Positions 3,181-19,168 of a DNA stretch of 64,000 nucleotides are shown piece by piece. The notes beneath the pieces are model-generated. The model saw only the letters and a list, made by a program, of their open reading frames with translations. It searched no databases and was not told the origin of the DNA. The stretch is taken from assembly GCA_034006035.1 (NCBI GenBank), contig JAVETN010000006.1:1-64000 (forward strand), in the 5' to 3' direction. A program made the position numbers and the translations under genes. The stretch is from Desulforegulaceae bacterium. GTDB lineage: Bacteria; Desulfobacterota; Desulfobacteria; Desulfobacterales; JACKCP01. The stretch's first letter is position 1. Every line of letters begins with the position of its first letter.

Positions 3181-3582
3181 TTATTCAGCTTCATAAAACC
3201 TGAATTTAACGTGCTTAAATATTCTTGTTGTTTTTATTTGGTTTTCTTCTTTTATTTCTTTTTCAAGATTTCTTTTTGTAACCGAATAAATTGGCTTTCT
3301 TTTATTTTTTAAGCAAAAATTTACAATATTAAATAATGCACCTGATTCTCCCTGAACCCATATAAAATCTGACTCATTGGAATTTTTTAAAATCCATTTT
3401 TTAACAGGCTCAAGATAAAGCGAAATTTTATCCATAACAGGTGGAATATTTGACCACATTTCTTTAATTTTTAAATCAGCTTCAGTTTCTATTTTAGCGT
3501 TTAACTGCTTTTCAATATCTTCAAGCTGCTCTGGTGCTGGTATATGGTTTAATAAGATGAGTATTTTTTTTGTTTCTTTCAA
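3181..3582 (-). CDS. csx20: Csx20-family CRISPR-associated protein (possible ring nuclease)
   Basis: Small protein (133 aa) resembling the Csx20 family: an N-terminal LLNHIPAPEQLEDIEKQL stretch, then KEMWSNIPP, a central WVQGESGALFNIVNF segment and a C-terminal KHVKFRFYE. The Rossmann-like layout and its place between cas6 and cmr1 fit a CARF-related protein. Csx20 has been discussed together with Csx15 and Csx16 as cyclic-oligoadenylate-degrading ring nucleases; that role here is inference. Start codon is TTG, with AAGGA about 10 nt upstream, because no in-frame ATG fits. It would act as an off-switch for the Cas10-Cad1 signal. Confidence 0.75.
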   Translation of the reverse strand: MKETKKILILLNHIPAPEQLEDIEKQLNAKIETEADLKIKEMWSNIPPVMDKISLYLEPVKKWILKNSNESDFIWVQGESGALFNIVNFCLKNKRKPIYSVTKRNLEKEIKEENQIKTTRIFKHVKFRFYEAE

Positions 3583-5168: not shown

Positions 5169-5780
5169 TTAAAAATTATACTTTATTCCTGCACTGATTA
5201 CAGAAATTTCAAAATCGTCTTTATCCATATAATTCATGTATTCAACATTAACGCAGAATTTATCAACATAAAAGTCAAGTCCTACTCCGTATGAAAAATC
5301 GGATTCTGTATCTGAAACTTCTAAATATATATGTTCATTATAATATGTGCTTTTTACCTCTGCTTTCGCACTTGCTTTTGCTTTAGAATACCCAGCAATT
5401 GCATATATAGAGGCTACATCTTTAAGAGGAATGTAACCGCTGAGATAAGCTCCATAAACTCTGTCTAACTCAAAAGTCCCTTTAACGTCTAACTCAAAAG
5501 TCCCTTTAACGTAACTTCCATTAGAGTACTTTACGGTGACTGTATCGTCTCCAATTCCAAAACCAAAACGTCCCTCAATTGCAATATAATCAATTATAAA
5601 ATAACCAGCCTTTGCAACCAAAACTGGGAATTCAATATCAGGGAAATTATTTTCTTCATAACTCAGCATACCTGCATTAAGTCCAACATATGCCTGTCTT
5701 TGTTTAATTTTGCTATCAGCAAAACAAGTTGATGCAATAATAAAAATAAACATAATTGATAAACTAAAAATCTTTTTCAT
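5169..5780 (-). CDS. Outer-membrane beta-barrel protein (porin-like)
   Basis: 203-residue protein with a clear Sec signal peptide (MKKIFSLSIMFIFIIASTCFA) and alternating aromatic/hydrophobic strands ending in a C-terminal phenylalanine (GIKYNF), the pattern recognised by the BAM machinery. It resembles small 8-stranded OmpA-like/OprF-type barrels. I place the start at the ATG with GGAGG five bases upstream, not the longer frame. The coding sequence contains a perfect 24-bp tandem duplication giving the repeat VKGTFELD twice. It sits between cas2 and cas6, has no obvious CRISPR role, and probably entered the locus by insertion. Confidence 0.8.
   Translation of the reverse strand: MKKIFSLSIMFIFIIASTCFADSKIKQRQAYVGLNAGMLSYEENNFPDIEFPVLVAKAGYFIIDYIAIEGRFGFGIGDDTVTVKYSNGSYVKGTFELDVKGTFELDRVYGAYLSGYIPLKDVASIYAIAGYSKAKASAKAEVKSTYYNEHIYLEVSDTESDFSYGVGLDFYVDKFCVNVEYMNYMDKDDFEISVISAGIKYNF
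5463..5510. repeat. 24-bp perfect tandem duplication inside the OMP gene
   Basis: Two identical adjacent 24-bp units (beginning GTCTAACTCAAAAG on the plus strand) at 5463-5486 and 5487-5510. The unit keeps the frame and adds eight residues to a predicted strand or loop. Perfect identity implies a recent slippage event. Confidence 0.95.
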
Positions 5781-5919
5781 TCTTCCTCCAATAAAGTTAT
5801 AAGTCATTTGAGAGCATTAATAAAAATTTGCAATGCTCATAATTCCTGAAATTTAGTTTGGTTTGATAAAAAAATTCATATTTACTTTTTTATAATAAGT
5901 TAATTCTTTTGTTAAATTG

Positions 5920-6198: not shown

Positions 6199-7233
6199 TT
6201 ATCTTTTCCATTCAAAAGGCTTGTAAGTTGTTTTATTTTCAAGGGATTCAATAAATTGTGAAATTTGCCTTGAAATTATCTTTCTAATTTCTAGTTTTTT
6301 ATTTTCCGGTGGGTAAAAAAGTCCTGTATTCATCATATATTCGTATGATTCTATGAATTTATTTCTAAATTTAGGCTTCATTTCAACAGGACGATTTAAA
6401 ACCATATCTTTTTCATCTGAGTATGCGTCTTTTTTTTCTCTGAATACAAAATCATCTTTTTTAACTATTTTTCTGTTAACAAGCTCAAGCACAAATCTAT
6501 CTGCAACCGGGGCTCTATATTCTTCAACAAGATCGCAGGCAAGAGACGGTCTTGAATACAAAATTTCATGCAAAGATCCAAGATAAGGATCTAATCCCTT
6601 GATCTGGATAGCAGTTAAAACTTCAGATAAAAGGATTGTATAAATGTATGAAAGCATTGCGTTTATAGGATCAAGAGGAGGCCTTTTGCTTCTTTTTTTA
6701 AAATAAAAACCTTTATTTTTAATCATTTTTTTAAACATTCTGAAATATAATGCTGATGCTGCTCCTTCAAGTCCTCTTATTCTATCAAAAGAATCTGTAT
6801 AAACTGGTTTAAAACTTTTGAGAGCAAGTCCTGCTTCAGAAAGCTGTCTGTCCTTATAATCTCTTCCTCTTAAGGCCATGAGATTTGACATGTTTTTAAT
6901 TTTTCCGTTTACTGCAGCACAGGCAAATTTTTTTGAATAAACAGGATCAGACAACAAAAAATACTGTTTTTTTCTAAGTTCAACCTTTGAATTTTCATCT
7001 GTTGAAATTCTTGCACGAAATTTACCATTTCTTGTTAAAAATACAGTTTCAATTTTGTTATCAACCAAATAATCAAGAACAGCTGAAGTAAGAGACACTC
7101 CTTTGGCAAGGACAACTCTTTTTATATTGGAAGAAGGGATTGAATTTAAAACAGAGCCGTTTTTTACAATAGAAAGCTCGCCACCTTTTTTTCTTATAAA
7201 TGAGCCTGGCTCCATTATGTAGACTGATTCCAT
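6199..7233 (-). CDS. cas1: Cas1 spacer integrase
   Basis: 344-residue Cas1, the metal-dependent integrase of CRISPR adaptation. The catalytic residues are visible: Glu156 in RGLEGAASALYF, His222 in PYLGSLHE, and the acidic cluster Asp234/Glu237-238 in ACDLVEEYRAP. The N-terminal beta domain (YIMEPGSFIRKKGGEL) is typical. No reverse-transcriptase domain is fused. It follows the primase-polymerase gene with a one-base gap and precedes cas2, forming the adaptation operon TPR-CAPP-cas1-cas2. Confidence 0.97.
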   Translation of the reverse strand: MESVYIMEPGSFIRKKGGELSIVKNGSVLNSIPSSNIKRVVLAKGVSLTSAVLDYLVDNKIETVFLTRNGKFRARISTDENSKVELRKKQYFLLSDPVYSKKFACAAVNGKIKNMSNLMALRGRDYKDRQLSEAGLALKSFKPVYTDSFDRIRGLEGAASALYFRMFKKMIKNKGFYFKKRSKRPPLDPINAMLSYIYTILLSEVLTAIQIKGLDPYLGSLHEILYSRPSLACDLVEEYRAPVADRFVLELVNRKIVKKDDFVFREKKDAYSDEKDMVLNRPVEMKPKFRNKFIESYEYMMNTGLFYPPENKKLEIRKIISRQISQFIESLENKTTYKPFEWKR

Positions 7234-7234
7234 T

Positions 7235-8809
7235 TTATTTTATATACCTTTCAACTATTAAAATTGCAGTTTTAAGATTTTCAAGAGCCTGCTGAAGACT
7301 TTCAGTTTTTTCAGACCTTCCTTTAAATTGTTCAGGGGAAAATCCAAGATGGAGCAGGGGAGTAAGGTATTCTCCTGATTTTTCAAAATAGCAGTAACTT
7401 CCAGAATATTCGGTGATATTATGTATTCTTCTACAGCCAAGAGGAGTTCCTTTAAGCCTTGTAAGATACAAATCAACAAGTTTGTCATTATAATCAGGCA
7501 TTCTTTGAAACAAACTATGAACAAGCCTTCTTCCCTGGGGAAGAAAGCCAATTGTCTGGTAAATTATTTTTTCCTGGGTTCTTGAAATATTGTTTTTATT
7601 AAGACATTGAACAATAATTTGCCCTATTGGCGGACAAAGGTTTTTGAGGTTTACAATTTCAGGAAATTCAGAGTTTTTTTTTAAGGGAAAATCTTTAACT
7701 TCAGCTTTGGATTCTTTTATGTTTAAGTTTCCAATTTCCTGAGGTGAATATTTTTTCAAAAACTCAAGCTGACTTTGGGTTTCTCTTTTTTTGCACTCAG
7801 GGAAATAGGATTTTTTACCTGTTTTTTTATGAATTCCAAGGGGAAGTTTAACAAGGTTTCCCAAACCTTTTCCTGAAAGATAATCTTGTTTTGGAAATAC
7901 CTCTAAATTAAAATATGTTAAGTCATTTTTAATTTCACTGGTAATTGATTCAAGAAGTTTTTTTACAATTCCGGCTTTTGGTGAATTTTTAAAAAAATAC
8001 CAAAAATGATATCCTTTGCCTCCGCTGAATTCCAAAAGAGGATTAAGTCCATATTTTCCAGATATTTCTTTGATTCTTTTTACCATCCATTGAGATTCCT
8101 GATTTATTTTACCAATCAGTTTTCTTTTGTTTTGAGAACGAACTTCTTTTGTTAAGTCTATATCAATTACACCAAGATTTACTGAATTGTCTGAATTTAA
8201 AATATAAATACCAAGGCTTTCTCTTCCTGAAATATGGGATTCAATTTCATCTTCTGTAAGAATTTGTCTTACTGGAACATAGCCTTGCTGCTGCTTTTCT
8301 TTTGAATGCCATTGTCTTGCAAAAACGTCAGTTCTTCCTTTAAAAAGTGAGAAATAATATTTAATCAGCTCCTGATTTTTTCTTAAATTTTCCAAAGGAT
8401 AAAAACTTTGTTCAATTTCATTTGTTTTTTCCTCAATCTGAAAAAAAGCAGAGGTGGTTTTAAATCCGTTTTGTTTTGCAAGAGCTGTTATTTTTAAAAG
8501 CTTTTCCTTTTCATTTAAAATGGAAAGCATTTCAATATGATTTTCAAAAGCTGTAAAATTTTTTGGAAATTTGTTATGAGTAAAATTGTAAATTTTTTCT
8601 GCGGCATCAATACTGCAATTCATTCTTGCAAGCTCGCTCCATTTTATGAGCATTTCTTCATCAAGATCTGATAAAATGGAGTTATTTTTTAAAATTCTTT
8701 CAATTTCTTTTTTATCGCCCCCTTCAATAATTTTATTTTCCAATTTTTTGGAAAGAAGGGTGTAATCAGCATTTTTTAAAAGAATCTTTTTTGCATTAGT
8801 TGATGCCAT
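7235..8809 (-). CDS. CRISPR-associated primase-polymerase (CAPP)
   Basis: 524-residue protein of the archaeo-eukaryotic primase superfamily, of the kind described next to cas1-cas2 and implicated in adaptation. Catalytic motifs are complete: motif I GVIDIDLT (Asp216, Asp218), motif II SGGKGYH (262-268, His268), and motif III KLPLGIHKKTG (321-331). The first 140 residues are TPR-like helices. A C-terminal cysteine module (LCPPIGQIIVQC, then GCRRIHNITEYSGSYC) resembles the zinc/PriL-like module of TOTE-type primases. AAGGTGG precedes the ATG. It lies 10 nt after the TPR gene and 1 nt before cas1, so it probably makes or completes DNA substrates for Cas1-Cas2. Confidence 0.85.
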   Translation of the reverse strand: MASTNAKKILLKNADYTLLSKKLENKIIEGGDKKEIERILKNNSILSDLDEEMLIKWSELARMNCSIDAAEKIYNFTHNKFPKNFTAFENHIEMLSILNEKEKLLKITALAKQNGFKTTSAFFQIEEKTNEIEQSFYPLENLRKNQELIKYYFSLFKGRTDVFARQWHSKEKQQQGYVPVRQILTEDEIESHISGRESLGIYILNSDNSVNLGVIDIDLTKEVRSQNKRKLIGKINQESQWMVKRIKEISGKYGLNPLLEFSGGKGYHFWYFFKNSPKAGIVKKLLESITSEIKNDLTYFNLEVFPKQDYLSGKGLGNLVKLPLGIHKKTGKKSYFPECKKRETQSQLEFLKKYSPQEIGNLNIKESKAEVKDFPLKKNSEFPEIVNLKNLCPPIGQIIVQCLNKNNISRTQEKIIYQTIGFLPQGRRLVHSLFQRMPDYNDKLVDLYLTRLKGTPLGCRRIHNITEYSGSYCYFEKSGEYLTPLLHLGFSPEQFKGRSEKTESLQQALENLKTAILIVERYIK

Positions 8810-10250: not shown

Positions 10251-10835
10251 TTATAACTTTAAAGCAAGACTTGACCAAAGTTCCATGTTCAGAGTTTTTA
10301 ACTCTGAAGTTTTAAAAAACTGAAAAGAATTCAGCTCTTCGCCTGGAATAAAACTTTTTATATCATCTGAAATTATTTTATAAACAATTCCCAAATGAAC
10401 TTTACCCACTTCAGTTACTTCTTCATTGATAATTCCGCAAAAAGAAATAGAATATTTTTTTGGTAGGCCTGTGATTTCCTCGGACAATTCTCTTTGCATT
10501 CCATTTTTGATTGTACTAAAAACTGACTTTGATTTGTCATTGGTATTTACATGTCCTCCAACTCCAGAGGACCATAAATCAGCAAGTCTTTTTTCGCTTC
10601 CTTTTCTTTTATAAATACCTGTAAGCGTTTTTTTAGAGTTCTGAATTAAAATATAGGGAATTATCTGTTTTAGATTAAAATTTTCTTCAGCCTTGCTTCT
10701 AGTTTCATATAAAACTTCAAAAGAATTTATTTTATTTTTAAATTCATCCTCCAGAATACTCAGGCTTAGATAATTTTTAATCCATTCCTTTGGAAGATTC
10801 TTTCTTTTTATGCACAACACTTTTTCACTATTCAT
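10251..10835 (-). CDS. Nudix hydrolase coupled to Cad1
   Basis: 194-residue Nudix-fold protein. The Nudix segment is GVGGHVN ... KNGMQRELSEEITG; the metal-binding RE..EE core is present, with a somewhat long spacing between GG and RE and one extra residue before the last glycine. I choose the ATG with AAGGTGA six bases upstream; this overlaps the cad1 stop by 8 nt, so translation is coupled. Nudix enzymes cleave nucleoside diphosphates linked to another group. Being tied to an enzyme family that converts ATP to ITP, it could act on inosine nucleotides, on cyclic or linear oligoadenylates, or limit toxicity; the substrate is not readable from sequence. Confidence 0.85.
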   Translation of the reverse strand: MNSEKVLCIKRKNLPKEWIKNYLSLSILEDEFKNKINSFEVLYETRSKAEENFNLKQIIPYILIQNSKKTLTGIYKRKGSEKRLADLWSSGVGGHVNTNDKSKSVFSTIKNGMQRELSEEITGLPKKYSISFCGIINEEVTEVGKVHLGIVYKIISDDIKSFIPGEELNSFQFFKTSELKTLNMELWSSLALKL

Positions 10836-12960
10836 TGAAATCACCTTTTAATATTAAATCTAAAATTTCATTTTCTGCATTTTTAATAAGTTTTGTTTTT
10901 GTTTGTCTATCAGCAAAGGCAGATTTAAAACCATTTCTTATTAGTATAAAAATTTCCCAAAGTGAAAGCCCGTTTTCTGTCATTTTTGCAGCTTTTAAAA
11001 ATTCATTTGTAAAATCAGTTTTAGAAATACCAGGATTGTCAGTGTTTATAGTTACTTTAAGACCTTTATCTAGATAAAATTTAAGGGGATAATCAGAATG
11101 ATTTTTTGTTTCATCCATTAAAAAATCTCTATAACCAACTATTTGAAAATTACTGGAAGGGCACATTTCAAGAGCAGTTCCAGAATTTAAAAATTTTTCC
11201 ATAAGAGAGCTATTGTCTTTTAAGGTAAGTCCATGTCCAATTCTTTCTGCACTTAAATGATATACTGCTTCCCAGATATTTTCTGCAGGCATGTTTTCAC
11301 CGGCATGAATTGTAAAATGCATACATTTTTCCATTAAAGGTAAAAAAGCTTCCCTTATTTCTGAAGGTTTTTTTGCTTTTTCATTTCCTGCCAAATCAAA
11401 GCCTTTTAAAATTGTATTTTCATCAGTTTCAGCAATACTTTTTGCAAGCTCGACATGGCTGTAAATTGTGCTCATTTTTCCGTGACGGCTTCCAATAAAA
11501 ATAATTCCTGCTTCAATGTTTTTTAATTTATTTAATTCATTTTCTATTGTTTTATATACCAAAAGAGGACTCATTCCTCCTCTGGTATAATTGTGGGGTG
11601 AACATCTTAATTCCAAATATTTTATATTATGAAAATTTGCTTTTCTTTTTAAAATTTCACAGGTTTTTTGTAATGTTTTTTCATGTTGCAAAAGCCCTGA
11701 ACCCTGCAAATCTCCAATTTTTTCATAAGGAGAAAAACCTTTTCCACAGAAATTGCTTTCGTATTTTAGATCAGAATAAATAAAATCTTCCAAAAGCTCA
11801 GGATGATCTTTAAAAAGAAGAATAAAATTTGCAGTTATAAAAGGTTCAGGAATATTGTTTAAAGCTGTTCTTATTTTTTTGGGAATATAGGTTTTTCTTA
11901 ACTTAACAATTTCTTTTGATTTTATAAGCTTTTTTGCTTTTTCAAAAAAGGAGTCCAGAACTTTTTTGTAAAAAAGAAGTTCTGTTTCTAATTCTTTTGC
12001 AATTTCAATAAGTTCAAAAGCATCTGCAACACCTCCTAAGTGACAGTGAAGTTCTGTTTTAGGAAGTTTTTTTAAAAGATTATAATCTTTTTTTAAATTC
12101 TTTTTATTAATTCCAATTTTATAATTTTTCAAAAAACCTATAAGTTCAGGAGGCAAGGTATAAAGTGCAAGAAAGTTTGTTTGATTTTCTCCCTGAATAA
12201 GCTTTGAACTATAATTAAAAACAAGATTGGTTGCATTTTTCTTTCTTTTTTCAATTTCATCAATTAAATAATTTTTATCATCAAATTCTACAAAAACAGG
12301 ATCTGAATTTTCTGGATATTTTATAAAAAAATCTTTGGATTTTATTATAGGGTCTATTTCTAAAAGTATGTTTTTTTGGTATTGGCCTGTAATTACAGGA
12401 GTGAAAGCATTGGAAAAAGGCTTAACCAGAGGTGAAAGAAAAAAATCTGTGTTTTTATCTTTTAAACTTTTAGCAATTTCAAAATTATCAAGAATATGAA
12501 TCATTGCTTTGCATCCAAAAAAAGATGCTGAATTCTGCAAATCAGAACTCATGGTTTTTCTTCCTCCTGTAAGAGAAAGAAAAAGACTTTTGTCTTTTGT
12601 TTTTTCATAGGCAAGAAGGGTGATTCTGTGAATTGTTTCTGCCATTTGTCTGAATTCATATTCTGAAGTCAGATCATCGGCATTTTTTACAAGCCAGATT
12701 TTAAGTCCAGGCTTATTTTTACTTAATTTATCATACCACTCAACAATTGTTTTTAATGAATTAAGAGTTTTTTGCCCACCTGTACCAACCATCCAGATTT
12801 CATTGATGTTTTTTATATTATGTTTTTTTCTTTTTTCTTCAATTTCTAAAATATCTTTATGATTTTTATAAAGATTTATTGTTTCAGGGTTTGTAAAGCC
12901 TATGATTTCAGGGATTATCTGCCATGAAATTCCAAAAGTTGTTAGTAAAATATTTGTCAT
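10828..12960 (-). CDS. cad1: Cad1: CARF domain fused to adenosine deaminase, type III CRISPR effector
   Basis: 710-residue fusion. Residues 1-200 form a CARF domain of the Csm6/NE0113 type: start NILLTTFGISWQ and the ligand-loop motif SLTGGRKTMS (129-138). Residues 298-700 are an adenosine-deaminase domain with all metal and catalytic positions: HCH (His305, His307), HAGE (His552, Glu555), GHG (575-577) and TDNP (Asp641). In the characterised Cad1 family, cyclic oligoadenylate binding switches on deamination of ATP to ITP, which arrests growth of the infected cell. It is the first cas gene downstream of the array and overlaps the Nudix gene. The family assignment is firm; the preferred ring size of the activator cannot be read. 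Confidence 0.9.
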   Translation of the reverse strand: MTNILLTTFGISWQIIPEIIGFTNPETINLYKNHKDILEIEEKRKKHNIKNINEIWMVGTGGQKTLNSLKTIVEWYDKLSKNKPGLKIWLVKNADDLTSEYEFRQMAETIHRITLLAYEKTKDKSLFLSLTGGRKTMSSDLQNSASFFGCKAMIHILDNFEIAKSLKDKNTDFFLSPLVKPFSNAFTPVITGQYQKNILLEIDPIIKSKDFFIKYPENSDPVFVEFDDKNYLIDEIEKRKKNATNLVFNYSSKLIQGENQTNFLALYTLPPELIGFLKNYKIGINKKNLKKDYNLLKKLPKTELHCHLGGVADAFELIEIAKELETELLFYKKVLDSFFEKAKKLIKSKEIVKLRKTYIPKKIRTALNNIPEPFITANFILLFKDHPELLEDFIYSDLKYESNFCGKGFSPYEKIGDLQGSGLLQHEKTLQKTCEILKRKANFHNIKYLELRCSPHNYTRGGMSPLLVYKTIENELNKLKNIEAGIIFIGSRHGKMSTIYSHVELAKSIAETDENTILKGFDLAGNEKAKKPSEIREAFLPLMEKCMHFTIHAGENMPAENIWEAVYHLSAERIGHGLTLKDNSSLMEKFLNSGTALEMCPSSNFQIVGYRDFLMDETKNHSDYPLKFYLDKGLKVTINTDNPGISKTDFTNEFLKAAKMTENGLSLWEIFILIRNGFKSAFADRQTKTKLIKNAENEILDLILKGDFNE

Positions 12961-13143: not shown

Positions 13144-13291
13144 AGTGTTTTTCCTTTTTATAAATTATATTTTTTGTCTTCAAAAATTAACTACGGCATT
13201 GATATTTTAGATTTCAAAAAAACATTTGACTAAGAAAATTCAGTATTTTTCAAATGAAAATAAAAAAACAAATTCCAGGAACAAATCTTCA

Positions 13292-14634
13292 GTCTTTTTA
13301 ATCCTCTCGAAGCGAGGCTAATTTCTGACCTGAAGTAAAACCTGAAGTAAAAACAAAGTTACGCAAAGTCTTAATCCTCTCGAAGCGAGGCTAATTTCTG
13401 ACCCTCGTTGGCAGAAGGTAGTGCAGAGTGTTTTCTCAGAGTCTTAATCCTCTCGAAGCGAGGCTAATTTCTGACTCGCCTCATTGGCAGAAGGCCACTC
13501 TGAGGTCTACCGTCTTAATCCTCTCGAAGCGAGGCTAATTTCTGACTTAAATGAAGCTGAGGCAACTCCTCTTGAGGCAAGAAAGTCTTAATCCTCTCGA
13601 AGCGAGGCTAATTTCTGACTACACCTACGAAATCCAGGAGTGTAAGGGTGTTAGAATGTCTTAATCCTCTCGAAGCGAGGCTAATTTCTGACTAAGCTCG
13701 CCGAGAAATTAATGTCAGTGGAAGGCAAGGTCTTAATCCTCTCGAAGCGAGGCTAATTTCTGACGCTGAAATGCGTGTTTGCACGTGTGAAGTGACAAAA
13801 AGTCTTAATCCTCTCGAAGCGAGGCTAATTTCTGACCTCTCGGAGATTTACACCTCTACAAGCTGCCAACCAGTTCGGGTCTTAATCCTCTCGAAGCGAG
13901 GCTAATTTCTGACCAGTCTGCTCCCTAATCAAGAAGAAATTCTTAACTCCGTCTTAATCCTCTCGAAGCGAGGCTAATTTCTGACTTAATGTCAGTGGAA
14001 GGCAAGAAGCTTCCAGCTGACGTGTCTTAATCCTCTCGAAGCGAGGCTAATTTCTGACACTTGTTGAAGCTAAACCTATGGCTATCGAGACTGTAGTCTT
14101 AATCCTCTCGAAGCGAGGCTAATTTCTGACAGAAGCTATGTGGGTAGATACTAACGATAAAGGAGCTGTCTTAATCCTCTCGAAGCGAGGCTAATTTCTG
14201 ACTATACTGGACAAAAAATAGAAAAAATATTCAATAAAGTCTTAATCCTCTCGAAGCGAGGCTAATTTCTGACTCAATCCTTGTTGCATTAAACCTTGAA
14301 AAGGTTGAAAAGTCTTAATCCTCTCGAAGCGAGGCTAATTTCTGACTTAATGGCTGGAAGGAGCAAAAGATTTAAAGATGAAGTCTTAATCCTCTCGAAG
14401 CGAGGCTAATTTCTGACAAAAAATCGAATTAAAAAACAAACATTTTAACAACTCAGTCTTAATCCTCTCGAAGCGAGGCTAATTTCTGACAAAAAAAAGA
14501 TTACAAAATCAGAAAAACGAGAATTGTCTTAATCCTCTCGAAGCGAGGCTAATTTCTGACTACGAAAGACCTGCCTGTAGCTATAGCTGATGTATCCTAG
14601 TCTTAATCCTCTCGAAGCGAGGCTAATTTCTGAC
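13292..14634 (-). CRISPR. CRISPR array, 19 repeats of 35 bp and 18 spacers
   Basis: Repeats start GTCTTAATCC and end TTTCTGAC on the plus strand, with an internal CTCG-AAG-CGAG hairpin. Eighteen copies appear identical. The leftmost (13292-13329) is 38 bp because three extra T residues follow GTCTT. Spacers are 35-42 bp, most 36-38 (the longest, 42 bp, is at 13837-13878). On the minus strand each repeat ends ATTAAGAC, a typical type III 5' crRNA tag, so I read transcription as leftward, with the leader on the right and the degenerate repeat at the old end. Spacer order from the left is S1 (13330-13367) to S18 (14561-14599). Confidence 0.98.
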
Positions 14635-14957
14635 TCCTGCCTTTTGTATAGCTTTATTCATGCGGGTTTTCAAGGCCAAAATGAGACATCCCCTCAAATT
14701 TTAGCCTCCGTGTAGTTTTTACCCACCTTGAATTTCTCATAAAATCAGTTAAGGTGCTGAAATAATTAAACAAAGATTACTCCTCTGTGGATTTTGGTTG
14801 CTGTGTAAGCTAATGTATTGATTTTATTGTATATATCGAATTTAAGACCAAAATAATTTTAACATCCAAAATCCACCTCATATCTTTTTATATAACCACT
14901 TGAAATTAAAGACTTTTATTTGAGAGATTTTCAATATTCAATTGTCACAGAGCAAAA
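14635..14957 (-). promoter_or_regulatory. CRISPR leader region
   Basis: 323 bp of non-coding sequence between the newest repeat and the 3' end of the Lon-like gene. Orientation of the repeat (ATTAAGAC tag on the minus strand) and the degenerate repeat at the far end place the leader and array promoter here. I see no further gene; an exact promoter could not be assigned with confidence. Confidence 0.7.
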
Positions 14958-17075
14958 TTACCTATAGGAAAAAGGAAAAAATTTTTCTTTATCTTCCCTT
15001 ATATTTTTTAAAATTTCAATTGTTTTTTTCTTTGTAAATAAAATGGAAAAATGGGAATGGGAAAGTTTTAAAGCTGATTTTTTTATTGTTTCAAAAACTT
15101 CATCAGCCCATGAATTTAAATCTTCTAAAAGAACTAATTCAGATAAAGGAAGCAAGGCCATTACTCTAATTGAATCGCCGTTTACTTCGTCCAGACAGAT
15201 TTTAAGACTTTTTTTTAACAGGTTTTTTGAATCATCTGATTTTTCAAGCATTAGACCAATTAGCCCCAGATTAAAAAACCAGAGCTGGGAAGGATGATAT
15301 TTGTTTATATTTTCAGGATGGGAGTTTTTATATTTATCAAAATAGAATTTTTGGTATTGAATAGAATTTTTGATATCAATATTTTTGTTTCTTGAAAGAA
15401 AGCTTGCACACAAAAAATGTCCCCATTGGTCAAATTCTTTATTTACAGCTTCTGAAATACTGGAAGAATTGGAATATTTTAAAAAGTATTTCTCAGCCTG
15501 ATTAAAATCCCCAGCATCAAGATAGGCAAAGCAAAGATAATTGAATTGTCTTTTTATATCATCCCTGAACTTTGAATTTTTAAGATTGGTTTCTCCTCCA
15601 AAATATTTTATTGCTTTTAAGGCAAATTCTTTTGTTTTATGAATATAATCTTTTCCGCAAAATCCATAGTTTTGTGCAATTGTTCCGCATAAAGCTGCAA
15701 TTGTATCATCTGCTGCTTCAGGGATAAACTCACATTCCTCATGAAATCTTTTTTCCAGGATGTTTAAAAAATTCTTTATTGTAATCGGAATTTCTGGGTT
15801 GAAAATATATTTATCATGATTTGAATTTACAAGGCAGTGGTTGGTAAACCAGATAAAAGCATTTCTTCCTTTTCTTGTTTTCACAGCATTATTAATAAAT
15901 TTTTTAGAAATTTCTATCCATTTGTTTTCCTGGGAAGGAATTCCTTTTCTTGAAAAAACAAGGGAAGCAGAAGAAGAAAACAAAAAAAGTAAATCAAAAA
16001 AAGGTGATTTTGAAAAAATTTTAAAATTGTTTTCAATTAAAGAAATTATTAATAATGCTTTTTCAAGGTCAGTGTTTGAACTTTTAATAAAATTTTTAAT
16101 AAAACCTGAAAAAAGAGTTTCATTAAAAACTATATTTTCAACCAGGGATGTTTCTTCTGTTTTTTTTAAAACAGCTTTTAAAATATTTACAGGAACTGAA
16201 TAAAGATAGGATGACAAAGCTTCAGCCGGAAATAAAATAAATTTAAAATATTCTTTTAAAAATCCTTTTTGAGAAGCCAAGGCCAGAGTTTTTTTAGCTT
16301 CTTTTATATCTGTGGAAGGAAGGGTTTTTAAATCTTTAGAAAGATTTTTATTTTCATAATAATTAATTGAAGGAACTATAAAAAACTTAAAGTTTTTATT
16401 TAAAATAAATTCCTTTTTTTTATTTAAATCCATTGTGTTTTGAGTTTTGCCTTCATCATCCAATACAGATGAAAAAATCAAATCATTTGGGTATAATTTG
16501 TTGTTTTCAATGGAAAAAAATCCTAGATAAAAAGATAAAGAAGCTGATTTGCCACCTAACTCAAGATTGGAATTGTATTTCAAACCTTCTATAAAAAAAG
16601 ATTTTTTTGAATTTAAAAGTTTAAATGAATTTAAAACTGAATCTTTAAATTCCTTACTGCTATTATTTTTTATAAAATCTCCAAATATTATGTTTTTTTC
16701 TGATTCTATTTCAGAAATAAAAAAATAAATTAAATCAATTTGATTTTCATTTAAAAAAACACAGGGAATAAAAGTGTTTTTATCTAAAAACTTGAAATTA
16801 AATGAAAAAGTATTGCAAAAATAAATATTTGCAAACTCAAATGATTTAAGTTTATTTGTGTTTAATGATTCAAATAAAATATGATTTATAAAAAGGATGG
16901 TAAGATTTTTATCAAACTCTAATTTTTTTATATATTTTTTAAAAATTTCTTCATTGAAATCTAGATCAATGATTTTGAAAAAAGGATCTTCAAGAAAATT
17001 GATAAGAGTAGTTGCTCTTGATCTTGATTTAAGACAAAAATCTATTTTTTTAAGATTTAAATTATCTCTTATCAA
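14958..17075 (-). CDS. Lon-like (S16) peptidase-domain protein with TPR-like helices
   Basis: 705-residue protein that I do not recognise as a whole. Residues about 160-237 resemble the proteolytic domain of Lon, especially the LonB type: LELGGKSASLSFYLGF aligns with the GDSAS active-site strand (candidate nucleophile Ser177), LYPNDLIFSSVLDDEGKTQ with the DVAMTGE..RG segment, and DLNKKKEFIL..KFFIVP with the catalytic-lysine helix (Lys219-221). The motif aspartate is replaced by Lys176. Residues 1-150 are unassigned. Residues 270-700 are helical with TPR-like units (YLDAGDFNQAEKYFLKYSN). There is no AAA domain and no CARF or SAVED domain that I can identify. The start is TTG, overlapping the anti-sigma stop (TTGA). 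Context suggests it cleaves the adjacent anti-sigma-like protein. Confidence 0.6.
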   Translation of the reverse strand: MIRDNLNLKKIDFCLKSRSRATTLINFLEDPFFKIIDLDFNEEIFKKYIKKLEFDKNLTILFINHILFESLNTNKLKSFEFANIYFCNTFSFNFKFLDKNTFIPCVFLNENQIDLIYFFISEIESEKNIIFGDFIKNNSSKEFKDSVLNSFKLLNSKKSFFIEGLKYNSNLELGGKSASLSFYLGFFSIENNKLYPNDLIFSSVLDDEGKTQNTMDLNKKKEFILNKNFKFFIVPSINYYENKNLSKDLKTLPSTDIKEAKKTLALASQKGFLKEYFKFILFPAEALSSYLYSVPVNILKAVLKKTEETSLVENIVFNETLFSGFIKNFIKSSNTDLEKALLIISLIENNFKIFSKSPFFDLLFLFSSSASLVFSRKGIPSQENKWIEISKKFINNAVKTRKGRNAFIWFTNHCLVNSNHDKYIFNPEIPITIKNFLNILEKRFHEECEFIPEAADDTIAALCGTIAQNYGFCGKDYIHKTKEFALKAIKYFGGETNLKNSKFRDDIKRQFNYLCFAYLDAGDFNQAEKYFLKYSNSSSISEAVNKEFDQWGHFLCASFLSRNKNIDIKNSIQYQKFYFDKYKNSHPENINKYHPSQLWFFNLGLIGLMLEKSDDSKNLLKKSLKICLDEVNGDSIRVMALLPLSELVLLEDLNSWADEVFETIKKSALKLSHSHFSILFTKKKTIEILKNIREDKEKFFPFSYR

Positions 17076-18163
17076 TTTGTATCAGTCCTGTACCAATTAA
17101 AAAACCAGATATTTTTTCCTTTTGAAAACTGAAATCTTGCTTCAAATACATTGGTTTCTTCATCAAAATCTGAAAAGATTGATTCTATTGTTTTTCCTGA
17201 GTTTGTCTGGAAAAGGGCATGGCTCCCTGAATAAACAAAATCTTTATTATCTGGCTCTGCTGTTCCAGTAATTATTAGGTTTTCATTTTCTATGAAATTA
17301 TCTTCCAGATTTGCGTTTTGAAGTAAAATGTTTTTAATTTCTTCATTTTCAACTATTACAGAATAAAAATAAAAATTTATTTTTTCACTTCCTGCATGAA
17401 CAATTGTTGGATTAAAATAAGTTGCCAATTCTTTTAAAAGCAGCTCAGGATTATTAATCAGATTGTCTTTTAAATAGATTTCATTGGAAATAAGTTTTTT
17501 TGCTTTTGTTTTAAGGGCTTTTGCAAGTATAAATGCCGGTGATGAGGTAAATTGTGAAGCACAAAACTTTTCTATCTTCCTAAAAACTTTAACTTCTTCC
17601 ATGTTTTTATTTTTAAATCTGCTTTTTGACCAGATAGGAGGAGTTTCTGAATTGAAAAACAAATCTATATCAGTTTTAAAATCACTTAAATCACAAATAA
17701 AATTTGAAATAAGAGTTTTGTGAATTTTAATTTTGTTCCAGCCCTCAATTATAAAGGGTATAAAATCTGAAATTAAATCTGGAATAAAAAGGTCTTTTTC
17801 AGAAAAAATTTCTGTAATTGGAGAAACTAAAAAACATTCAAAAAAATCATCTTTTATTTTATCAAGATAAACTAAAGGAGGAACAAGATAGAAATTGTTT
17901 TTCCATTTCCCAAGCTCGCTTTTTAAAGAGGCAATTTCCCCGGGCTTGGGCTGGTAAATTTCAATTTCAGATTTAAAACTTTCTGCAAGATCAAAAAACG
18001 GATCAGGGGTTTTGTTTTTACACAAAGGACATGTTTTAAAATGGTTTAACACCTTTTCTTTAAAATAAGGATCCCTTATGGTTTGTTCATCTGGACACAA
18101 CCTGAGTGAGACGGCTTCTTTAAGATATTTGTTTTTATTTATTTTATTATAGTCAATTTTCAT
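17072..18163 (-). CDS. Putative zinc-binding anti-sigma factor (ZAS-like motif)
   Basis: 363-residue protein. The N terminus carries LCPDEQT (about residues 22-28) and HFKTCPLC (about 42-49), an exact H-x3-C-x2-C motif preceded by an upstream cysteine, as in zinc-binding anti-sigma (ZAS/HC2) domains. The remaining 300 residues are unrecognised, with no obvious transmembrane segment, so it would be a soluble anti-sigma. It lies directly downstream of a sigma-like gene and overlaps the Lon-like peptidase gene by 4 nt, the arrangement of a sigma / anti-sigma / protease module. Its start codon follows an 18-bp repeat present three times, the last copy supplying the GGAA ribosome-binding sequence. 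The function is inferred from motif and context. Confidence 0.6.
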   Translation of the reverse strand: MKIDYNKINKNKYLKEAVSLRLCPDEQTIRDPYFKEKVLNHFKTCPLCKNKTPDPFFDLAESFKSEIEIYQPKPGEIASLKSELGKWKNNFYLVPPLVYLDKIKDDFFECFLVSPITEIFSEKDLFIPDLISDFIPFIIEGWNKIKIHKTLISNFICDLSDFKTDIDLFFNSETPPIWSKSRFKNKNMEEVKVFRKIEKFCASQFTSSPAFILAKALKTKAKKLISNEIYLKDNLINNPELLLKELATYFNPTIVHAGSEKINFYFYSVIVENEEIKNILLQNANLEDNFIENENLIITGTAEPDNKDFVYSGSHALFQTNSGKTIESIFSDFDEETNVFEARFQFSKGKNIWFFNWYRTDTN

Positions 18164-18170
18164 ATTATTT

Positions 18171-18224
18171 TTCCGGTTTATTTTATTTTTCCGGTTTATT
18201 TTATTTTTCCGGTTTATTTTATTT
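18171..18224 (-). repeat. 18-bp direct repeat, three perfect copies, upstream of anti-sigma gene
   Basis: Units at 18171-18188, 18189-18206 and 18207-18224, reading TTCCGGTTTATTTTATTT on the plus strand. On the coding strand each copy holds CCGGAA, and the copy next to the gene places GGAA about 10 nt before the ATG. Copies are identical, so they could slip, act as an iterated operator, or provide repeated ribosome entry sites. Confidence 0.95.
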
Positions 18225-18256
18225 AACGGCTTTTTTTTGTTAATTTTTAAAATAAG

Positions 18257-19168
18257 TTAATTTTTATCAAGAATATTTTTTATTGAATTAATTATATCTT
18301 CTGCCTCATTGGGGTTAAAATTGTTTTTATGAAAAATTGATTGTAGTTTTTTAAGGGTCTTTTTTATAAGTGCAGTCAGTGCGGATTGAGAAGAATAGCC
18401 AAGCTCCCTTGAAACATCAGCTTTTTTTGTTTGAAACAAATAACAACTTAAAGCTTTTTGTTCTTTTTCATTAAATTCTGACAAAATCTGGTTTGCGATT
18501 AATTCAGAATCATCATAAATATCAGGAAGATTTTTGTCATGAATTTCAATAAAACTATTTTTATCATCAATTGAAACCCATGAATTTTCAAACATATTAT
18601 TGGAAAAAATCCAGGCATTAAAATCATTTACATTAACAGCTGTTTTATTTTTTTTATAACCGTATTTTTCAACTTCATTCATAAAATGGAAAAAAAGATT
18701 TTTTAAATTTTTTTGTTTAACAATTTGATTTTCAATTCTAAATTCGTCGTTTTCAGGATAAAAAACATCATTAAAATCTATTGTATTTGAGTTTAAAAAA
18801 ACAGTTGGGGATTTTGAGATTGAGAAATAAATAAAACTATCATAGTTTTTTGAAATAATTTCTTTAGATTTTTTAAAATCATCAATTATTTTCTTCCGAA
18901 GATAAAGAAAAAAACTATTGTCTTTTGTTCTTTCCTTATCTTTTAAATGATTTATAAATGCTTTTTTTAAATAAAATTCTTTGTTTGGAAGATTTGAAAG
19001 TTTTTTTGATAATTTTTGCTTATTTTCCAAAAGAAAAAGAGCAAGGTCAGATTCAAGCTCCATGATTTTTCGATTTTCATTTATGCCTTTGAATCTGGAA
19101 AAAATTTTTTTATTTGTATTTATTTCTTTATATAATGAAAGAGCTGCTTTGCTTATAAGTTTTTCCAT
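18257..19168 (-). CDS. Sigma-70/ECF-like sigma factor of the CRISPR locus
   Basis: 303-residue protein. The C-terminal part (about residues 225-285) reads like sigma region 4: ILSEFNEKEQKALSCYLF, a helix-turn-helix segment ADVSRELGYSS, then IKKTLKKLQSIF. An upstream segment, NSFFLYLRKKIIDDFKKSKE (about 103-122), resembles region 2. The 130-residue linker between them is longer than in typical ECF factors. It is the first gene of a three-gene leftward operon with the ZAS-type protein and the Lon-like peptidase, next to the CRISPR leader. Likely released on infection to redirect RNA polymerase. Moderately sure of the sigma assignment; a phage-type transcription regulator is the alternative. Confidence 0.6.
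   Translation of the reverse strand: MEKLISKAALSLYKEINTNKKIFSRFKGINENRKIMELESDLALFLLENKQKLSKKLSNLPNKEFYLKKAFINHLKDKERTKDNSFFLYLRKKIIDDFKKSKEIISKNYDSFIYFSISKSPTVFLNSNTIDFNDVFYPENDEFRIENQIVKQKNLKNLFFHFMNEVEKYGYKKNKTAVNVNDFNAWIFSNNMFENSWVSIDDKNSFIEIHDKNLPDIYDDSELIANQILSEFNEKEQKALSCYLFQTKKADVSRELGYSSQSALTALIKKTLKKLQSIFHKNNFNPNEAEDIINSIKNILDKN

Follow-up and report, generated by a model that had tools for sequence, protein, structure and literature searches.

A cassette encoding a sigma-like protein, a ZAS/MazF-fold anti-sigma candidate and a Lon-TPR peptidase is associated with type III CRISPR in Desulfobacterota and may act as a proteolytic transcription switch

The first 64,000 nt of contig JAVETN010000006.1 from a Desulforegulaceae bacterium (GCA_034006035.1; positions 1-64,000, hereafter the window) carry a type III-B CRISPR locus that borders on three genes encoding a sigma-factor-like protein, a candidate anti-sigma factor and a Lon-like peptidase. 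Here we report a computational analysis of this trio, of its relatives and of the part that it may play in type III immunity. All three genes reside on the minus strand, in the order sigma-like protein (303 aa, 18257-19168), anti-sigma candidate (363 aa, 17072-18163) and peptidase (705 aa, 14958-17075). The last two overlap by TTGA (minus strand ...CAAATTGATAAG), the TTG start codon of the peptidase lying over the TGA stop codon of the middle gene, and the first two are separated by tandem 18-bp repeats (TTTATTTTATTTTTCCGG; 18159-18230). Directly downstream of the trio follows a minus-strand CRISPR array with 19 repeat copies and a degenerate repeat at its low-coordinate end (about 13276-14653); the A+T-rich stretch in between (31% G+C, 14654-14957) is a putative leader. 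This layout agrees with the original prediction, made from the sequence, which had singled out the three leftward open reading frames, the overlap and the adjoining array.

The peptidase possesses a genuine S16 Lon fold with a Ser-Lys dyad. The profile of its family matches M. jannaschii LonB in the PDB (1xhk, E=1.3e-15), and Pfam Lon_C is recognised in 11 of the 28 family members. The AlphaFold2 model (mean pLDDT 87) comprises an N-terminal helical cap (residues 1-92, 16800-17075), the S16 proteolytic domain (residues 95-269, 16269-16793) and an all-helical tetratricopeptide repeat (TPR) module that extends to the C-terminus (residues 272-705, 14961-16262). The S16 domain superimposes on Lon with a VIA-align Z of 21.4 over 164 residues, and among the matches listed for the full model there are Lon chains only. 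The catalytic serine, Ser177 (16545-16547), is part of a GGKSAS motif and is followed 43 residues on by Lys220 (16416-16418), a spacing equal to that of S679/K722 in E. coli Lon. Throughout the 28 sequences these two are the sole invariant residues of the S16 part, and their equivalents are kept in three further divergent peptidases; all other invariant positions fall in the TPR half, including GT..QN..F.G, HP and the C-terminal FPFSYR. No AAA, CARF or SAVED domain is seen in the peptidase, the model being devoid of any alpha/beta CARF/SAVED domain, and SAVED (PF18145) occurs nowhere in this genome, nor in any carrier of the peptidase in our sample. The S16 fold, the GGKSAS serine with its downstream lysine, the lack of AAA, CARF and SAVED, and the roughly 430 residues of TPR-like helices had all been anticipated; what had been described as an unassigned N-terminus shrinks to about 92 helical residues, as the S16 domain begins already near residue 95.

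The middle protein combines a zinc site with a MazF-like fold. Cys23, His41, Cys45 and Cys48 (C23 ... H41-x3-C45-x2-C48, 18020-18097, minus strand) are nearly invariant in the family alignment, and the exact H-x3-C-x2-C motif noticed before, HFKTCPLC, corresponds to residues 41-48. Four of the 22 family members match zf-HC2 at E up to 0.1 (best E=8.1e-6). Residues 67-177 (17633-17965) form a MazF/CcdB-like core: the AlphaFold2 model aligns with CcdB and MazF chains at a VIA-align Z of about 9 to 9.5 (rmsd 3.0-3.5, 88-98 aligned residues), and Foldseek likewise returns MazF matches. A profile of the family found no significant sequence match in the PDB. The zinc site fits the proposed ZAS anti-sigma character, and the MazF-fold core, overlooked at first, makes the protein a closer parallel to CalpT (see below) than a bare ZAS protein would be. 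Three relatives (in loci L020, L039 and L042) carry a more classical ZAS motif and apparently lack the MazF part, and they nonetheless keep the cassette.

The sigma-factor-like protein is divergent and resembles ECF (extracytoplasmic function) sigma factors; on its own it matches TIGR02937 at E=0.016. A helix-turn-helix corresponding to sigma region 4 spans residues about 223-277 (18338-18502), the family profile matches region 4 of FliA in the PDB (E=8.4e-8), and Pfam Sigma70_r4 is found in 7/19 members. The region 4-like C-terminus of the original prediction is thereby confirmed. Scanned singly against Pfam, NCBIfam and PADLOC, the three window proteins all stay below cut-off; they owe their assignments to alignments of orthologous families, so that these are not motif matches by chance.

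The trio is a real and recurring unit of sigma factor-like protein, anti-sigma candidate and Lon-like peptidase. It occurs in the same order and on one strand in 25 loci, all from Desulfobacterota; in the remaining carriers the neighbourhood is rearranged or truncated by the end of a contig. A peptidase search of 297 genomes of the phylum identified 14 true carriers. A fifteenth candidate (G145/L015) was dismissed as spurious, since it matches weakly (E=0.007) and its neighbourhood contains no trio. When the alignment guided a scan of 84,980 species, 20 loci were retrieved, all Desulfobacterota by their titles; a scan of genome contigs with the single window protein retrieved no relative, so that the family alignment is needed, and no homologues were found in viral contigs. 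The genome under study holds a single copy each of the peptidase and the ZAS protein. In most cassettes a conserved small protein of about 110-170 aa (THPIFVL...VCPCSSK...GC.LE) is encoded directly before the sigma gene (L023:5803-6276, L025:5995-6426, L073:8211-8765 and others). It is missing from the window and was not found in the rest of that genome; one member scanned against Pfam gave no match, and neither did the family profile against the PDB. The small protein is a possible fourth component, in a position analogous to that of the small gene before CalpS.

Carriage of the cassette is linked to type III CRISPR. Cas10 was counted at about E 1e-11 or better, a threshold set because its profile PF22335 also matches GGDEF proteins and one that may still admit a few miscounts; strong matches so defined occur in 12/14 carriers compared to 79/283 non-carriers (Fisher p=2e-5). 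The ring nuclease Csx20 shows a second association, being present in 12/12 Cas10-positive carriers compared to 18/79 other Cas10-positive genomes (p=2.7e-7); both p-values ignore relatedness, and the carriers span nine different families. Of 31 carrier genomes, 25 have genes of the RAMP (repeat-associated mysterious protein) type; in eight of these 25 the RAMP genes share a contig with the cassette, at a distance of 7-35 kb. The expectation that the three genes would co-occur with one another and with cas10 is thereby borne out. Csx20 degrades cyclic tetra-adenylate (cA4), and ring nucleases have been reported alongside cA4-dependent effectors (PMC12409355). The Cas10 proteins of the carriers include both Cmr2-like and Csm1-like types, and the GGDD motif is kept in all but one checked locus. 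In that locus (L126:9941-12667, genome G074) a Cas10 with an HD motif and GES in place of GGDD lies beside the cassette, apparently a cyclase-dead type III system. In L025 (2757-4472) a Csx20 domain is found inside a larger CARF-like protein of 571 aa that adjoins the cassette.

Two genomes devoid of type III genes carry the cassette nonetheless, a caveat to any coupling with CRISPR. Both (G172 and G282) encode the small protein, the sigma-like protein, the ZAS protein and a Lon protein with its dyad intact, and RAMP genes are entirely absent from them. The match of their peptidases to the family ends at about residue 407; the GT..QN, HP and FPFxYR motifs are gone, and the C-terminal half has been replaced. 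Both cassettes (L073 in G172, L074 in G282) are located near curli-like (CsgG-like) genes. The same TPR module is also found on a DUF3800-like N-terminus, beside a cmr operon and array in G117 and next to the cassette in G074; in G275 a DUF3800-TPR fusion sits inside the cassette operon, recognised by inspection of its end and context (DUF3800 E=0.0066, below the Pfam cut-off). DUF3800-like proteins that carry a TPR module of this kind at the C-terminus are encoded in type III loci at L123:9493-11685, L126:2711-4891 and L020:5981-8122. Common to two types of effector within type III loci and exchanged outside them, the module behaves like an input domain, and the TPR half of the peptidase is probably its CRISPR-input module. 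We tentatively go further and suggest, as a possibility that falls somewhat short of even odds, that the module (GTxxQN...HP...FPFxYR) represents a new type III input domain that is neither CARF nor SAVED, senses a nucleotide messenger or the active complex, serves a DUF3800-like nuclease as well as a sigma-freeing Lon protease, and is exchanged once the cassette escapes from control by CRISPR. TPR-DUF3800 proteins have been described in a CRISPR context before, in a sub-branch of Cas12a2 (PMC10910872); those are linked to Cas12a2 whereas the relatives here are linked to type III.

One of the closest parallels is the Calp system, in which CalpL cuts CalpT and the resulting 23-kDa fragment is MazF-like (PMC9704534, PMC11417357); CalpT was later assigned as an anti-sigma factor (PMC11417357). 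Both systems combine an S16 Ser-Lys protease, a MazF-like anti-sigma candidate and a sigma gene, in the same sigma-anti-sigma-Lon order and beside cas10. The match of our peptidase family to CalpL is, however, confined to the S16 core (profile E=2.7e-4, hhalign E=1.7e-6). In place of SAVED there are about 430 TPR residues, a helical cap precedes the S16 domain, and the N-terminal ZAS zinc site is not seen in the two CalpT sequences that we compared. These two derive from Desulfobacterota genomes (L094 and L095) in which a SAVED-Lon protein matches CalpL nearly full length (PDB E=3.6e-31) beside cas10, in the order small protein, sigma, CalpT, CalpL, cas10, where the sigma factor and CalpT are assigned by position and inspection. 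The operons (L094:5700-9167, L095:5310-8798) are complete and include an extra 150-aa gene before CalpS, of which we know no earlier description. This gene parallels the small gene of our cassettes by position; homology between the two proteins was considered and dropped, as none was found. The relation to Calp is one of architecture and fold rather than of demonstrated descent.

Craspase, the type III-E system of Cas7-11, TPR-CHAT Csx29, Csx30, Csx31 and CASP-sigma that was first studied in a desulfobacterium (PMC10028731), resembles the cassette in that a protease with TPRs is combined with a sigma factor and with an anti-sigma protein as substrate, a proposed one in our case, and in that a further small gene is frequently present. 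It differs in that the protease here is an S16 Lon rather than the CHAT protease Csx29, and in that the effectors are multi-subunit Cmr or Csm complexes with Cas10 rather than Cas7-11; neither the anti-sigma candidate nor the small upstream protein has a significant sequence match in the PDB. With classical ECF sigma/ZAS pairs (RsrA, RslA, RskA) the trio shares the H-x3-C-x2-C zinc site, sigma region 4 and adjacency of the genes, but these pairs differ from it by the dedicated Lon-type protease, the MazF-fold core and the CRISPR linkage seen here. We found no published description of the cassette in the literature searched, which did not include subscription papers or preprints. The cassette is a novel variation on the Calp/CASP theme that lacks a defining feature of each, having no SAVED on the one hand and no CHAT or Cas7-11 on the other; the suggestion of a third arrangement, with Lon-TPR at its centre, was well founded.

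We propose, with a probability of about 0.62, that the cassette is a proteolytic switch of transcription set off by CRISPR. As long as the cell is at rest, the ZAS/MazF-fold anti-sigma factor would hold the ECF-like sigma factor. Recognition of foreign RNA by the type III complex would generate a signal that Lon-TPR receives at its C-terminal TPR module, and the Ser177/Lys220 centre of the S16 domain would become active; the peptidase would then cut the anti-sigma factor, and the sigma factor so freed would transcribe a defence regulon. CRISPR detection would in this way be coupled to transcription. Several observations weigh against such a switch. The peptidase contains no known cyclic-oligoadenylate-binding domain, and TPR repeats usually serve protein docking. 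Sigma region 2 is barely detectable in the sigma-like family, being recognised in just 1/19 members (E=0.057). Set against CalpS and CalpT (two sequences each) by hhalign, the sigma and anti-sigma families gave no significant match, and for this reason we do not claim sequence homology. A Gibbs search upstream of 17 cassettes returned a two-box promoter candidate that we rejected as incoherent and near to shuffled sequences in score (144 compared to 120-137). In several carrier loci Csx20 also lies beside CARF effectors and need not serve the cassette, and in G074 the adjacent Cas10 lacks GGDD, yet there are other Cas10-like matches in that genome.

The same apparently cyclase-dead Cas10 would suit a Craspase-like arrangement in which the TPR module docks directly onto the type III ribonucleoprotein and target RNA activates the peptidase allosterically, with no diffusible messenger. 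Csx29 provides the precedent: its N-terminal domain, TPR and CHAT1 contact Cas7-11, and a TPR activation region senses the target RNA (PMC10028731); the Lon protein here is likewise a TPR protease without a known nucleotide-binding domain. Docking has to contend, however, with carrier loci that hold Cmr2-type as well as Csm1-type Cas10, whose docking surfaces differ, with cassettes that often lie 7-35 kb from the RAMP genes, and with the strong association with a cA4 ring nuclease. We regard it as unlikely, albeit deserving of serious attention. A diffusible nucleotide, either cA4 or one made with it, is the more likely signal compared to subtype-specific docking because of the Csx20 association and the mixed Cas10 types.

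CRISPR control might also be illusory, the cassette being a stand-alone stress switch, for instance one that senses redox state or zinc through the ZAS site, and merely travelling with defence genes. Redox sensing is known from ZAS anti-sigmas such as RsrA, and G172 and G282 retain the cassette in genomes without RAMP genes. We nevertheless think this improbable: the cassette is strongly associated with Cas10 and Csx20, and the CRISPR-free versions differ in the C-terminal half, which is what one would expect of the half that takes up the CRISPR signal. The MazF/CcdB fold of the 363-aa protein raises the prospect that cleavage frees a MazF-like ribonuclease, the sigma-like protein acting as a mere neutraliser, and the first Calp preprint, as cited in PMC9704534, proposed a toxin. 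CalpT, which has the same kind of core, was however later assigned as an anti-sigma factor (PMC11417357), and the L020, L039 and L042 cassettes persist although their ZAS proteins apparently lack the MazF part; a released toxin accordingly seems very improbable. Least credible of all is an S16 domain that serves as a non-proteolytic scaffold. BrxL, ComM and RadA do use the same fold, but Ser177 and Lys220 are invariant in the 28 sequences and preserved in the three more divergent ones, unlike what a scaffold would demand.

If the proteolytic switch is borne out, type III CRISPR has been connected to a protease-sigma relay on at least three occasions, each with a sensor of its own (SAVED-Lon, TPR-CHAT and Lon-TPR), a transcriptional arm would be a recurrent feature of type III immunity, and the input module would lie outside the CARF/SAVED superfamily. 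Effectors not yet recognised have been suspected in ring-nuclease loci that lack a known one (PMC12409355), and the cassette might explain some of the loci that contain Csx20.

The remaining genes around the trio are likewise all on the minus strand and together make up the type III-B locus, a type assigned from Cas10/Cmr2 (7-2166, TIGR02577 E=5.5e-61), which lies at the contig end and bears the GGDD cyclase motif (YAGGDDVCAVLP). The csx20 ring nuclease gene (3181-3582, NF040559 E=3.2e-37), cas1 (6199-7233, TIGR00287 E=4.9e-74) and a CRISPR-associated primase-polymerase of type A1 (7235-8809, NF040561 E=3.5e-121) are accompanied by cmr1-like, cas6-like, cas2, TPR-protein and NUDIX-like genes, of which cas2, cas6, cmr1 and NUDIX were called by inspection only. 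A CARF-adenosine deaminase similar to Cad1 (10828-12960, PADLOC CARF5--CARF_ADA E=5.4e-209) is a presumed cyclic-oligoadenylate effector of the same locus. Within the cas gene cluster a 212-aa protein (5169-5807) resembles outer-membrane beta-barrels. The NUDIX-like protein (197 aa) is encoded beside the CARF-adenosine deaminase (10251-12960 for the two). Because this pairing is repeated in L024, L036 and L130, the NUDIX-like protein may work together with Cad1 as its functional partner.

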